This document shows positions 369 through 25,638 of a stretch of 28,726 bases of DNA, piece by piece. The translations under genes were made by a program, and so were the position numbers. Under the pieces are notes generated by a model. The model did no database searches. It had not been told where the DNA came from and saw nothing but the letters and a program-made list of their open reading frames with translations. Origin of the DNA: a virus; IMG/VR virus record IMGVR_UViG_3300028025_002130, positions 1 through 28,726 of that record; one strand, given 5' to 3'. Every line of letters begins with the position of its first letter. The first letter of the stretch is position 1.

Positions 369-1664
369 TTAGAAACTGGGTGATGGGTCGGAGAATCGGC
401 AGAACTGGCCGTCGTACCACAGAGGCACCAGGCCGCACTCACCGTCCCTCTGTTTGGCAATGGCAATCACAGCCTCGCCCTGTGGTTGGTTGCGCTCCCG
501 GTTGAGCAATAGCACCAGGTCGGCGTCCCTTTCAATCTGACCTGAGTCGGCCAGGTCGGTGAGCCGAGGCACTCGGCCCTTGTCCTTCTCGTTCTCTCGA
601 TTGAGCTGGGCCAGGGCAACCACGGCTGTCTTGGTATCGGAGGCCACGCCTTTGAGTCTGCCAGAGACCTCGGCGATCTCGTAGGTCTTTTTCTCTGCGG
701 CCTTGGATCCGTGGATTTTCTGGAGGTAGTCGACCAGGACCAGCTTCACACCCCATTTACGAACAGCACGACGGATTACGGCGGTGATGGTTGCAATGTT
801 GGACACACCGGATCCTGAGACAAAATGTATCGGGCTGCCTGCGATCTTGGCCGAGGCAGTCGACATAGCCTTCATTCCTCCCTGGTCGAGTTGGCCGGTC
901 TTGATGTTCTGCATCGGTATGCTGCCAATAGCTGATACCATACGGCGCACGATGGACTCGTCTGACATCTCCAGGCTGATAAACAGCGTCGGGATCCGGG
1001 AGTCGATGGCGGCTGCCTTGGCAATGGCAATGGCGATGGCTGTCTTCCCGATGGATGGCCTGGCCGCAATGATGGCCAGCTCACCGAACTGAAAGCCATC
1101 GGTCATCTGGTCGAGCCTGTAGAAGCCCGAGGTGATCCCGGAGAGTTGGCCCTGCCTTGAGAATCTTTCCTGGGTCGAGTCGATGAATCGGCTTACAACG
1201 GACTTAGACGATTGCACCTCCTCTTTAGATGCCTCAACGCTGAGCCCTGCTTCGGCATTAGAGACGATTTGATCGACGGAGAGGGTGGGTACAGCGGACT
1301 CGCGTATCAGACGGTCTCCAGCGGTTCTGAGCTGGCGTCTATGGTAGGCCTCCAGGACAGCCTGGGAGAAGGCCGGATGGTTGGCCGGGCTGGGGCACAG
1401 CTCGTCGCAGCGGTTGAGAGCCTCGAATGGTGGAGTGACCTGAGGCATCGAGCGCTTCCATTCCTTGACCACCGTCGTCAGGTTGACCGGCTCGGTCTTG
1501 GCGACCAGGCCTTTAGTGATCTCGTACAGGTGCCGGAGGCTGTCGGTCTCGATGGCATGGGTTGGGATCTTGGCAAACACCTCGTGGCAGACATCGGAAC
1601 CACCGGAGAGACAGGCGCCGATCAGGCCGTACTCGTCGTCCTGGGCGAAGTAGGGATCGTTCAT
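369..1664 (-). CDS. dnaB: Replicative DNA helicase, DnaB-like (431 aa)
   Basis: Hexameric 5'-3' helicase that unwinds the phage replication fork. Residues 1-110 match the helical DnaB N-terminal domain (DDEYGLIGACLSGG, later LRHLYEI). The RecA-like motor domain starts near residue 178, with Walker A ARPSIGKTA at 201-209, LFISLEMS at 227-234 (the H1a region), Walker B KLVLVDYLQ at 307-315, and a C-terminal IERDADLVLLLNRE segment typical of the family's arginine-finger region. Length is close to bacterial DnaB. The start at 1664 is chosen because its ATG overlaps the initiator's stop (ATGA) and MNDPYFAQDDEYG aligns with the family's beginning; the frame stays open 30 codons further upstream. 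No separate helicase loader is recognisable, so the adjacent initiator may do the loading. Confidence 0.95.
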   Translation of the reverse strand: MNDPYFAQDDEYGLIGACLSGGSDVCHEVFAKIPTHAIETDSLRHLYEITKGLVAKTEPVNLTTVVKEWKRSMPQVTPPFEALNRCDELCPSPANHPAFSQAVLEAYHRRQLRTAGDRLIRESAVPTLSVDQIVSNAEAGLSVEASKEEVQSSKSVVSRFIDSTQERFSRQGQLSGITSGFYRLDQMTDGFQFGELAIIAARPSIGKTAIAIAIAKAAAIDSRIPTLFISLEMSDESIVRRMVSAIGSIPMQNIKTGQLDQGGMKAMSTASAKIAGSPIHFVSGSGVSNIATITAVIRRAVRKWGVKLVLVDYLQKIHGSKAAEKKTYEIAEVSGRLKGVASDTKTAVVALAQLNRENEKDKGRVPRLTDLADSGQIERDADLVLLLNRERNQPQGEAVIAIAKQRDGECGLVPLWYDGQFCRFSDPSPSF

Positions 1665-2425
1665 TGGTAGTCGGAGATGTTGGCACTGTACGCGCCGGTG
1701 CCATTGTTCCCAGAAGGGGAGGTGCTTCGAGACTTGTCGATCTCGCCGTTCCAATTGTTCAACAGGGTCATCAGCTCGCGGCGAAGGTATTTATCGTCCG
1801 ACTGGTAGCGTGCTTCCAAGGCAACCAGGTCTTCCTCCGGGGTGTTGAAGTCGAAGATCTCCTTTAAGGCCTTGATCTCCTTAGTGCTCCACTGGGTCGT
1901 AGGTCGACGCTTGATCAAAGCACCGACTCGTAGGCGGAAGGCTTCGAGCTCAGGTGAAAGCTCACGCGTGACGACTCCTTCCTTTCCTTCCCTTCCCTTC
2001 CCTTCCTTACGGCACGCGTGGTCCTCGCGTGGCTCACGCGTGGCTGACGCGTCATATTCCTCGGTGTTTGTTGGCGTTTCTTCAATGTTTCCTTCTGGAT
2101 CAGGCAAAACGGATTCGGATTCCCGGTTGTTGATCACCTGGTGCTTTAGGAAGCTGGGAATCCATCCAAAGCACGCGTCACCCACGCGATACTTGAGAAC
2201 GAAAGCACGCGTGGCCAACGCGTCGAGCACGCGTGAAAAGTCGACGCCATCGTATGGCAGCACCTGCACACCGATGCGCCTGGGCTCCCACTTGAATCTG
2301 CCTTTTCGGTCAGCAATGCACCAGAGGCCGGCGAAGGCCACACGGAGCGGAAGCCGGGTTTCAATCTCGGCCTCGAATAGTCCCTCGTGATGGAAGAACT
2401 CGGGTTTAATTGTTCGGATTCTCAT
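1661..2425 (-). CDS. Phage replication initiator-like protein (254 aa)
   Basis: The N-terminal about 100 residues follow a common phage replication-protein pattern: RIRTIKPEFFHHEGL, then LRVAFAGLWCIADRKGRF, PRRIGVQVLPYDG, a short repeat of leucines and ALATRAFVLKYRV, and IPSFLKHQ. This is a winged-helix-type initiator or replisome organiser domain. A charged, low-complexity linker follows (about 110-155), then a helical C-terminal domain (WSTKEIKALKEIF, LRRELMTLLNNW) that may contact the helicase. It overlaps dnaB by ATGA and also overlaps the gene before it by ATGA. The coding sequence contains an iteron-like repeat array (1963-2235), so the protein probably binds its own gene, as lambda O does. 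The family assignment is from pattern memory; origin binding is inference. Confidence 0.8.
   Translation of the reverse strand: MRIRTIKPEFFHHEGLFEAEIETRLPLRVAFAGLWCIADRKGRFKWEPRRIGVQVLPYDGVDFSRVLDALATRAFVLKYRVGDACFGWIPSFLKHQVINNRESESVLPDPEGNIEETPTNTEEYDASATREPREDHACRKEGKGREGKEGVVTRELSPELEAFRLRVGALIKRRPTTQWSTKEIKALKEIFDFNTPEEDLVALEARYQSDDKYLRRELMTLLNNWNGEIDKSRSTSPSGNNGTGAYSANISDYQ
1963..2235. repeat. Iteron-like array, candidate replication origin
   Basis: Eight exact ACGCGT cores, mostly within CACGCGTG, begin at 1964, 2014, 2036, 2047, 2173, 2207, 2218 and 2229. Near-copies are TCGCGT at 2025 and ACGCGA at 2184. Spacing is exactly 11 bp for 2014-2025-2036-2047, for 2173-2184 and for 2207-2218-2229, about one helical turn, so the boxes lie on one DNA face. 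On the minus strand the first cluster reads as 11-mers such as ACGCGTGAGCC. A unit of 11 puts each copy in a different reading frame, which argues against a protein-level repeat. The clusters flank a relatively AT-richer stretch (about 2054-2110). Direct repeats inside an initiator gene next to helicase resemble lambda ori. I noticed only one other copy elsewhere (21863). Confidence 0.75.
1975..2008. repeat. 34-nt pure pyrimidine run beside the iterons
   Basis: From 1975 to 2008 the plus strand has only C and T, dominated by a repeated TTCCC unit; the minus (coding) strand is all purine and encodes a Lys/Gly/Glu-rich stretch (EGKGREGKEG). It lies between the isolated ACGCGT at 1964 and the first iteron cluster at 2014. 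Strand-asymmetric purine/pyrimidine tracts occur in phage origins such as lambda ori and can melt or form triplexes. Whether this one is part of the origin is inference; slippage in the coding sequence is the simpler alternative. Confidence 0.6.
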
Positions 2426-6726: not shown

Positions 6727-7019
6727 GGCTTGGCCTCCTTCTTAATCTTCGCGTCATCCCAGCCCTGCAACAGGTTGTCCATTCGTATGGTCCTCATGCT
6801 CGGAGATGGAGGGTTGATGAATGCGTACATTGCGTTGCCAGCTATTTCGAGTTCTCGGATGCGCTGATCGTAGAACTTCCTCTCACCTTCGAGCTTGTCC
6901 CACAAAGCGCGGAGACGGTTTTCGAGTTGGGTGACATCGGATTGAAGCTCGCGGATCTTTGTGGCCTGTGGGTCGATTGTAGTCACCGTATTCGACGTTG
7001 GTATTGTGTAGTCGCTCAT
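6723..7019 (-). CDS. Coiled-coil small protein, tandem paralogue family (98 aa)
   Basis: Start placed at ATG 7019 (MSDYTIPTSN) because it overlaps the previous stop (ATGA) and has GGAAGGAG upstream; a start five codons earlier is possible. A long heptad-rich segment (IRELQSDVTQLENRLRALWDKLEG) is followed by RIRELEIAGNAMYAFI and a tail WDDAKIKKEAKP, the same layout as the proteins at 7308-7580 and 5949-6164. It is the clearest coiled coil of the set. Function unknown. Confidence 0.75.
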   Translation of the reverse strand: MSDYTIPTSNTVTTIDPQATKIRELQSDVTQLENRLRALWDKLEGERKFYDQRIRELEIAGNAMYAFINPPSPSMRTIRMDNLLQGWDDAKIKKEAKP

Positions 7020-19906: not shown

Positions 19907-20323
19907 TCAGACCGCAGTGTCGGAAACGACAGGCTGCTCCGCAACCAAAACCGGCGTCACCTGAGGCAACATCGGAGGCACGATCATCTCAGGCTCGGGC
20001 GGCGGCACCGGCGGCACCCACGGCAGCGGCAGACTCACCACGGGCGGGTTGATCTGGTTGGCAATCTGGAGCGAGACGTTCGCCTCAATCGCGCTCTGAT
20101 CGACTCCGTTGGCGTAGCACCAGCTCAAGACCTGATCCTGCGTGAGGTCAGGATAAGGAGTGAAGCTACCAGTCGGAGGAGCGAATGAGCAGGAGCCGTA
20201 GCAGGTTCCAGAGAACGATTCCTGCGAGCCGTTGCAACGCCAGTCGGCAGTGATAACGACATCGGTGAGAGAGCCTTCGGTGGGTTTGACGAGAAGGCGT
20301 TCGATGATCCAGAGGATGGTCAT
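19907..20323 (-). CDS. Short structural protein with Pro-rich tail (138 aa)
   Basis: The N-terminal 95 residues carry a pattern I recognise from small phage structural proteins (DUF7936-like): DVVITADWRCNGSQES, a CYGSC turn, F.P..DLTQDQVLSWCYAN, then SLQIANQINP. The remainder is proline-rich (LPLPWVPPVPPPEPEMIVPP). It follows the S74 fibre gene by 3 bp. A role as fibre accessory or attachment subunit is plausible by context; the family has no established function to my knowledge. Confidence 0.6.
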   Translation of the reverse strand: MTILWIIERLLVKPTEGSLTDVVITADWRCNGSQESFSGTCYGSCSFAPPTGSFTPYPDLTQDQVLSWCYANGVDQSAIEANVSLQIANQINPPVVSLPLPWVPPVPPPEPEMIVPPMLPQVTPVLVAEQPVVSDTAV

Positions 20324-21761: not shown

Positions 21762-21938
21762 TTAACCTTTGCGAACTTTCGGTGCCAGGGCTCCCTGTAT
21801 CCACAGGATGAGCTTGCCTCCTTCGGGAACGGTCGCGGTGTTGAAGCCGTCGCGCTGGAGAGACGCGTCGACATCGGGACCAGAAACGAGCTTGGTTTTG
21901 CCGTTCTTGTCCACCGAGATGGTTGTGGCGATTCTCAT
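21762..21938 (-). CDS. Small head-associated protein (58 aa)
   Basis: ATG at 21938, 11 nt after the capsid stop. The product begins MRIATTISVDKNGKTKLVSG and ends WIQGALAPKVRKG. It is a small beta-type protein in the position of a decoration or neck protein. The TAA at 21762-21764 is followed by the hairpin at 21719-21752. Function unknown. Confidence 0.65.
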   Translation of the reverse strand: MRIATTISVDKNGKTKLVSGPDVDASLQRDGFNTATVPEGGKLILWIQGALAPKVRKG

Positions 21939-24106: not shown

Positions 24107-25638
24107 TCTGATTTCTTGGATCTGGGTTTCCGTTTCTTGGCCACTGCAACCACCTCCTGGGGAGGCTCAGACGGGATGGCCTCGGGCATAGTCTCCGAGG
24201 GCGCCTGCTCGATGGCCATCTCGGCCGGCTCCGGTGCGATAGGCTGCTTCTGGGCGGTCGAGATCTCGGAGACATCGAGGCCGTATTTATTGGCCAGGTC
24301 TTGGATGTACCGGGCCTGCTGCGCCTTGGCCTCCAGGGCAGATCGCCAGTCGATGCCTCGGGCGCCGTAAATCTCGTCGTAAGTTGTGACGCCGGCACCA
24401 AGTTCTGCAAGCTGTGCGGCAGAGTTGCGGCCGACGTCGACGTTAGGCGAGCGGGGCGCCTGGATGGCCACCTCGTACCAGTCGTCGGGAGAATCGCGGA
24501 GGCTGGGGTCGGTGCGGATGGCGTATTCCATCACATATTCCCAGATCCTACGGGCGGCCGAGGCCATCACCTGGTGACGGCTCCGGAACCACACTGAAGA
24601 CATATCCAGGGCGCCGCGGTAGACCGTGCCCTGCATTCCCTCCGGGAACACCAGGACGTAGGGGATGCCGACGCCGGCGCACACCTTCTCAGTCAGGCTG
24701 CGCCAGTATTCGCGCATGTTGACGTTGGGGCGGTCGGCCTGGAACTGCTCGAACTCGTCCCCGGACTTCAGAACTTTGACCGTCGAGCCGAACACGTTCT
24801 CGTAGTACGTCTGGGCAGTGCCTTGGCTACCGACAACACCGGAGCGGAGGCTGCTGGCCTGCACCTCCCCGGAGCTGGTCTTGATCACCTGGGCCACGCT
24901 AGAGGCCAGCTTACAGGATTCCATCTCCAGCTTCTGGAGGTCGTCCAGGTCGTGCAGGTCGTTAATGACGCACGCCACGAAGGGCAGGCCGCGGAGCTGG
25001 CCGGCACGCTGGGCCTCGTAGATGTGGACGATGGAGTCGGAAGATATCGACCGGACTTCGGTGAGTTGGCCCTGGTTCGTTTCCTGCCCAATAAAGTAGG
25101 AAAGAGCGCGGCCTGTTTTGGTATCGAACCGGACTCCATCGAAGATGTCCGGCGATTGCTCCTGGCCGGTAGGTGTCGCCACCTGTTGCGGCTCGATGAG
25201 CTGAAGACGCGGACGCCCCGAGTCGCCCTTGGTCAGAAGCAGGAAGGATTCACCATCGTAGAACCAGCCACGGGCGGCCAGGCTCATGAGGGTGCCGAAA
25301 GACTGCCGGGATCCGATGTCCGGATAACGGCACCAGGTGTCCCACCATTTCTTGGCCCGGAGATTCCAGTCGGGATCCGAGGAAGCCGGCTGCACCGAGA
25401 AGTTGCTGCCAACGGTGTAGTTCTCGAACAAGTCACCGAGGCGGTTCATCACCGCGTTGTTCTGCTCGAAGAATCTGCTTTTCCGGACGATCTGCTGCCG
25501 GGTCGAGGCAGTAACATCGAACCGCACCGAGGTGTAGCTCGTGTCCAGGAAGGAACGCCGGATCGAGTTGGAAGCGCCCTCGTAGCGGTTTACAGGAGCC
25601 GACCGGAACTTAGCCAGGATGGTGTCGAGGAATCCCAT
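24103..25638 (-). CDS. Portal protein, lambda family (511 aa)
   Basis: Dodecameric channel at the head vertex through which DNA is packaged and ejected. YEGASNSIRRSFLDTSYTS, then VRKSRFFEQNNAVMNRLGDLFENYTVGSNFSVQP, DGESFLLLTKGDSGRPRLQLIEPQQV and WRSLTEKVCAGVGIPYVLVFPEG match the lambda gpB-type portal. Length is typical. The C-terminal part is acidic/proline-rich (EPAEMAIEQAPSETMPEAI) and ends basic (KKRKPRSKKSE). Start at ATG 25638 shares one base with the previous stop (TGATG). The stop overlaps the protease start. Confidence 0.92.
   Translation of the reverse strand: MGFLDTILAKFRSAPVNRYEGASNSIRRSFLDTSYTSVRFDVTASTRQQIVRKSRFFEQNNAVMNRLGDLFENYTVGSNFSVQPASSDPDWNLRAKKWWDTWCRYPDIGSRQSFGTLMSLAARGWFYDGESFLLLTKGDSGRPRLQLIEPQQVATPTGQEQSPDIFDGVRFDTKTGRALSYFIGQETNQGQLTEVRSISSDSIVHIYEAQRAGQLRGLPFVACVINDLHDLDDLQKLEMESCKLASSVAQVIKTSSGEVQASSLRSGVVGSQGTAQTYYENVFGSTVKVLKSGDEFEQFQADRPNVNMREYWRSLTEKVCAGVGIPYVLVFPEGMQGTVYRGALDMSSVWFRSRHQVMASAARRIWEYVMEYAIRTDPSLRDSPDDWYEVAIQAPRSPNVDVGRNSAAQLAELGAGVTTYDEIYGARGIDWRSALEAKAQQARYIQDLANKYGLDVSEISTAQKQPIAPEPAEMAIEQAPSETMPEAIPSEPPQEVVAVAKKRKPRSKKSE

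Follow-up and report, generated by a model that had tools for sequence, protein, structure and literature searches.

The window analysed here covers positions 1 to 28,726 of IMG/VR virus record IMGVR_UViG_3300028025_002130, a linear fragment on which terminase, portal and helicase genes are present. Its minus strand encodes a 254-aa replication initiator, residues 1-130 of which are spanned by a profile match to phrog_16167, and no Pfam family was matched by this protein at E <= 0.001, hence no RepA_N domain. The helicase gene lies immediately downstream with its start overlapping the initiator stop codon, and the adjacent helicase reported by the first-pass annotation proved to be of the DnaB type. 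Just 5' of the initiator start, positions 2426-2638 could not be aligned even to the two relatives (L009 and L036) that align on either side. The features of the locus are as follows.

369-1664, minus strand: DnaB-type replicative helicase gene (PF03796, 4.1e-71; phrog_19, 1.9e-80)
1661-2425, minus strand: replication initiator gene, 254 aa (phrog_16167 replication initiation protein, 3.4e-40)
1964-1969, minus strand: eighth box, on the helicase side of the purine tract and variable in relatives (exact-site search)
1975-2008, minus strand: polypurine tract on the coding strand (polypyrimidine on the plus strand) with GGAA/GGGAA repeats (sequence, codon test, recombinant junctions)
2014-2052, minus strand: putative iteron cluster 2, ACGCGT at 2047, 2036 and 2014 with TCGCGT at 2025, all in 11-bp steps (linker codons)
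2053-2170, no strand: AT-richer spacer between the clusters, 46.6% GC
2173-2189, minus strand: outlying part of cluster 1, ACGCGA at 2184 and an exact box at 2173, 11 bp apart (sequence)
2207-2234, minus strand: putative iteron cluster 1, ACGCGT at 2229, 2218 and 2207 in 11-bp steps (exact-site search)

Exact copies of ACGCGT were found at 1964, 2014, 2036, 2047, 2173, 2207, 2218 and 2229, all inside the initiator gene, and the near-copies TCGCGT (2025) and ACGCGA (2184) fill the 11-bp steps, so that the eight boxes, two near-copies and spacing described earlier were all recovered at the positions claimed; TRF likewise reported an array at 2013-2052 with a period of 11. The repeat core had been given as CACGCGTG, which occurs in only five of the eight copies, and the invariant core is ACGCGT, usually with C/G on the flanks. 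When all 28,726 bp were counted, eight of the nine ACGCGT sites lay within 273 bp (the ninth is at 21863). The proposed comparison of this count with a composition model gave an expectation of about 0.025 sites per 273 bp under an order-3 model built from the remainder of the contig (P ~6e-16 by the binomial for eight of nine sites in the 273-bp stretch). The boxes use all three codon phases, with the peptides SRV at gene position 191, DA(L/S/C) at 202, 247, 373 and 406, and TR at 213, 384 and 456. None of 10,000 protein-preserving codon shuffles reached eight boxes (mean 1.1, maximum 6), nor did any of 10,000 draws from the codon usage of the window (mean 0.4, maximum 4). The use of three phases and the failure of the shuffles bear out the earlier argument that selection on amino acids did not create the boxes.

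Eighty viral relatives were found with the initiator protein (loci of 4-9 kb), and since the record of L079 ends before cluster 2, counts refer to the other 79. The first-pass annotation had let its reading depend on phase conservation in close relatives, and boxes with 11-bp phasing were retained in register in 76 of these 79 (the exceptions being L076-L078), at conserved gene positions 191/202/213 and about 361-373/372-384 and even at 57-60% protein identity. ACGCGT was almost absent elsewhere in these loci, and the main variation consisted of a 12-bp deletion between the clusters and a floating last box; L050 carries the same array in a record that starts inside the gene. A second sample of 80 initiators from host genomes, chosen by protein alone and including Rhizobiales, Bradyrhizobium, Janthinobacterium, Comamonas, Shewanella, Stenotrophomonas, Acidobacteria and others, held 248 boxes in 67.4 kb of gene, with flanks mostly containing 0-1 per 4-5 kb. 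Spacings between adjacent boxes in this sample were 11 bp (119 pairs), 10 bp (11), 21 bp (6) and 22 bp (11), and L268 has five boxes exactly 21 bp apart, which indicates that the rule is helical phase and not a fixed repeat unit. A fixed helical phase between the two clusters was not supported, as their distances ranged from 157 to 239 bp with weak concentration. Judged by sequence comparison, the ACGCGT array is kept in hundreds of related phages. On a 46.6-kb circular extrachromosomal element of Bradyrhizobium ISRA432, six of the ten ACGCGT sites of the record form two phased triplets in the initiator gene and no other initiator is annotated on this phage-plasmid, which provides circumstantial support for an in-gene origin; the record could be an excised prophage.

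Phased boxes were also observed outside the initiator gene. Two Curvibacter loci, L254 (3394-3443) and L114 (1459-1508), have a second phased cluster (11, 11, 22) about 200 bp downstream of it. Far from the initiator, ct4oC223 (L372) carries phased ACGCGT at 37460-37509, just upstream of the large terminase gene, and Vibrio phage VvAW1 (L371) at 6939-6977, 20084-20100 and 25522-25538; the distant groups in these two phages are possible secondary initiator sites. Phased triplets additionally occur in a conserved 279-aa non-initiator ORF of L111, L120 and L152, the L152 copy of which had no PHROG or Pfam match. GC skew, suggested earlier as a check, gave no informative signal on the linear window fragment, and it was set aside as an origin marker because its minima lie off the initiator gene in VvAW1 (detrended minimum at 31503, about 0.8 kb from the gene at 32319-33212) and in ct4oC223 (minimum at 25400, about 4.7 kb from the initiator at 30126).

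Constraint at the level of codons was examined in 27 protein-selected genes, where the cluster-1 codons are near-fixed (TCA 23/23, CGC 25/27, GAC 27/27, GCG 26/26, ACG 25/25 and CGT 25/27; also GTG/A), in comparison to 17-60% use of those codons for these amino acids in other parts of the genes. These data bear on the view that protein sequence or codon bias produced the repeats as a by-product, through the SRV/DA/TR motifs and the K/E/G/R linker. The cluster-1 peptide DFSRVLDALTTRG is itself conserved, as this view would have it; against it, the codon-preserving nulls fail, codons are near-fixed at box columns only, and cluster 2 lies in a variable linker. Moreover, the FFTSEDI clade has kept the cluster-2 boxes in the absence of both cluster 1 and the SRV/TR peptide, and the boxes are therefore not there for the sake of the peptide. 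The codon nulls and codon-column tests ruled out chance, codon bias and peptide repetition as sources of the boxes, so that we give the by-product view practically no credence and regard it as already refuted as a sole cause. The 11-bp-phased boxes are real, and neither chance nor a coding by-product.

The 34-nt pyrimidine run noted on first inspection falls exactly at 1975-2008 and corresponds to the polypurine tract of the coding strand. Within the KREG linker runs, arginine is encoded by AGR in 88 of 95 cases (93%, versus 14% elsewhere) and glycine by GGR in 260 of 264 (98%, versus 42% elsewhere), and the purine tract is therefore a second DNA-level element. On the helicase side of the last box, it typically begins some 30 bp from the point where that box starts, and it is GC-neutral (54% GC over 1976-2012 in the window, mean 52% in relatives). 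No AT-rich unwinding tract was found beside the putative iterons, where there is merely a mildly AT-richer spacer; this spacer, also described earlier, has 46.6% GC at 2053-2170 versus 55-56% for the flanking parts of the gene, and was lower in GC than its gene in 21 of 22 relatives. On sequence grounds the purine tract is a candidate unwinding or loading element and a candidate recombination joint.

An AlphaFold2 model of the window initiator, built with 40 relatives, placed a winged-helix domain at the N-terminus (roughly residues 1-110) and a helical domain at the C-terminus (157-235), joined by a linker predicted to be disordered (116-153). Most 10-residue blocks of both domains had pLDDT values of 81-91, falling to 68-73 for the N-terminus and the blocks close to the end of the N-domain, and below 50 in the linker. 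The N-domain was modelled with helices at 14-23, 27-37, 48-55 and 63-72 and strands at 43-45, 77-81 and 84-88, and by winged-helix topology helix 63-72, which precedes the two wing strands, would be the recognition helix. The codons of this predicted helix occupy 2210-2239, and cluster 1 (2207-2234) lies within these and the codon of residue 73; cluster 2 (2014-2052) encodes linker residues with pLDDT below 50. Foldseek searches of the PDB returned weak winged-helix matches only, and no sequence relatives of the N-domain were found among solved structures. In structure comparison, the RepA_N-type initiators 4pql (Z 6.3), 4ro3 (Z 5.6) and 5kbj (Z 5.5) were weak matches tied with unrelated winged helices, and phage replisome organisers were matched in a viral structure library. 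A scan for residues associated with boxes found asparagine at N99 in 64 of 64 box carriers versus 14 of 34 others, and R65 and R73 were also associated; these associations are only a lead, since phylogeny and the choice of peptide patterns for fetching relatives both confound them, as does the coding of cluster 1 in the case of R65/R73.

The three viral relatives without boxes are natural recombinants. L076-L078 have a C-domain very similar to that of the window and a foreign N-domain, in a backbone whose nucleotide identity is 84-91% upstream, as far as about 2639, and about 86.5% at 1998 and lower positions, and their joint with the window sequence lies inside the purine tract. On the retained side the eighth box reads TCGCGT in these loci, and several box-bearing lineages also do without it. 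The converse exchange was observed in L080 and L081, which share only the block 1977-2428 (N-domain and boxes) with the window and have a foreign C-domain. At the sequence level, then, the boxes are exchanged together with the predicted DNA-binding domain at the N-terminus, and the joints fall at the tract. In diverged relatives that lack ACGCGT boxes, the linker holds different repeats in helical phase, such as ACGGGGAAACA at 11 bp (L236), CACATG at 10 bp (L237) and CACGTG (L234), and most of these alternative linkers then carry a purine-rich or other short-repeat tract. In L238, a Francisellaceae relative, GCATACCCGGGCATGCCCAGG repeats in 10-bp steps have largely replaced ACGCGT at gene positions 425-600.

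A scan of IMG/VR for ACGCGTN5ACGCGTN5ACGCGT, which used no protein information, matched at least 120 stretches. Among the matches listed, 101 of 116 array loci fell at the N-domain of the window initiator's family and 5 more in other initiators, so that 106 of 116 were in replication initiators. The other families are of the phrog_9474 type (L085, L105, L172) and the DUF1376 (PF07120) primosomal type (L115, L159), the N-domains of which showed no detectable sequence relation to the window family in these scans. Some members resemble the window in having ACGCGT linker arrays at 11 bp followed by a strand-asymmetric short repeat; near relatives keep the boxes and then have GGACA- or AACAG-type short repeats, and distant phrog_9474 relatives have CACGTGCA-like repeats and ACCGG repeats in place of boxes.

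Comparison with known systems showed that the lambda-like origin proposed in the first-pass annotation is apt in location and logic and departs from lambda in its parts. Ori lambda lies in the middle of the initiator gene O and consists of iterons and an AT-rich tract, with four iterons in lambda and six in Stx phages (PMC7466680). The window similarly combines a putative in-gene origin, repeated candidate initiator sites and an adjacent special tract; lambda has long iterons, an AT-rich unwinding tract and a helicase-delivery gene as neighbour, whereas in the window two clusters of a 6-bp core repeated at 11 bp adjoin a polypurine tract of neutral GC content, and the neighbouring gene encodes DnaB itself. 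The profile matches of the window initiator included no O-like PHROG, and the C-terminal part of a clade-2 relative (L086) matches phrog_345 'O-like'. In plasmid pSK41, a RepA_N domain binds four boxes placed centrally in rep, and plasmid pPR9 is a chimera in which N-domain and origin were replaced together and the C-domain kept (PMC5703833). The window shares with pSK41 centrally placed boxes and an encoded peptide that is only linker, together with a predicted N-terminal winged-helix domain that would bind the boxes, and pPR9 corresponds to L078 in the exchange of N-domain and origin (putative in L078) around a constant C-domain. RepA_N iterons are inverted repeats around poly-A (PMC7145576), unlike the boxes of the window, where there is no Pfam RepA_N match, fold likeness is weak (Z 5.5-6.3) and a second cluster lies inside the predicted recognition-helix codons. 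PLE RepA N-domains covary with their origin (PMC8263062); here too the predicted DNA-binding domain and the putative origin are exchanged as one module and the conserved C-domain is separate, although the PLE origin is intergenic with semi-palindromic iterons of about 30 bp (PMC7145576, PMC8263062). The precedents of lambda, pSK41/pPR9 and PLE mean that this kind of system is already known. What sets the window apart is the iteron code, the cluster in the codons of the predicted recognition helix, the GC-neutral purine tract and a code common to several initiator families, and a literature search for ACGCGT iterons or an origin of the window initiator family found nothing relevant among open-licence papers.

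The boxes, their phasing, the DNA-level constraint on boxes and tract and the co-transfer of the N-domain can be read from the sequences themselves. Because the boxes are kept in relatives and transferred together with the predicted binding domain, the gene very probably carries its own replication start, and our preferred reading, with a probability of about 0.83, is that the boxes are the iterons of a theta origin inside the gene of the initiator that binds them and loads the adjacent DnaB. Binding by the initiator, the place of melting, helicase delivery by the C-domain and the start site are what we infer. The N-terminal winged-helix domain would bind the palindromic boxes every 10-11 bp along one helix face, and initiator on the two clusters, about 160 bp apart, would wrap or loop the intervening DNA. 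The strain may be released in the strand-asymmetric polypurine tract (or in the AT-richer spacer) with exposure of one strand, the C-terminal domain would bring in DnaB, the product of the neighbouring gene, and replication of the theta type would start towards that gene. Counting against an in-gene origin are the off-site GC skew, the tract GC of about 52-54%, the extra-genic phased boxes (VvAW1, ct4oC223, L254) and the lack of a fixed phase between clusters.

The extra-genic boxes can also be interpreted as a sign that the array is an operator, at which the initiator or another phage regulator represses the gene or sets copy number, with replication starting elsewhere, and a phased palindromic array would suit a repressor too. 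However, the boxes sit within the initiator coding region, at 190-460 bp, and not at a promoter, and both the co-transfer with the N-domain and the conserved tract alongside are better explained by an origin; we consider an operator alone unlikely, and autoregulation could coexist with origin function. Since ACGCGT is palindromic, as many host protein sites are, the boxes might instead be bound by a host nucleoid protein, methylase or initiator and not by the phage initiator. This we judge very improbable, since phages with these boxes have hosts from Rhizobiales, Betaproteobacteria, Gammaproteobacteria and Acidobacteria, and the repeat type changes along with the initiator N-domain. Alternatively, the natural module joints at the adjoining purine tract may suggest that the array serves recombination or packaging, for example as a joint for module exchange, and plays no part in replication; the joints lie at the tract and not in the boxes, which vary from module to module where a shared recombination site would have to be constant, making this explanation scarcely credible.

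If the boxes are indeed iterons of an in-gene origin, they may represent a widespread and undescribed class of phage origin, with the initiator's own recognition-helix codons in its binding site, a strand-asymmetric short-repeat tract replacing the AT-rich element, and a code that is shared by at least three initiator families and switched in sister clades; this broader proposal is tentative and we lean towards doubting it. Were it true, the tracts would differ by family (polypurine here; GGACA, AACAG or ACCGG repeats elsewhere) and might provide a single-strand track for the initiator or helicase, as DnaA-trios do for DnaA, and the ACGCGT code would serve families with no detected sequence relation between their N-domains, with sister clades using other codes. 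The array provides a base-pair-level predicted origin for a large number of phages infecting Proteobacteria and Acidobacteria, most of them unstudied and some of them in culture, such as Vibrio phages VvAW1 and 1.131.O. With its swapped N-domains and repeat codes, this naturally occurring series offers a system for studying the evolution of initiator specificity, and the purine tract raises the question of whether an AT-rich element is needed for an origin to open.

Escherichia coli phages HK639 (L193) and Louie (L197) belong to the MARSRNIKPGFF sister clade and have TGCAAG and CTGATTCC repeats in their initiator genes, with TGCAAG pairs 11 bp apart in Louie. By their sequence these repeats are a candidate origin of a different code, in coliphages that are accessible in the laboratory.
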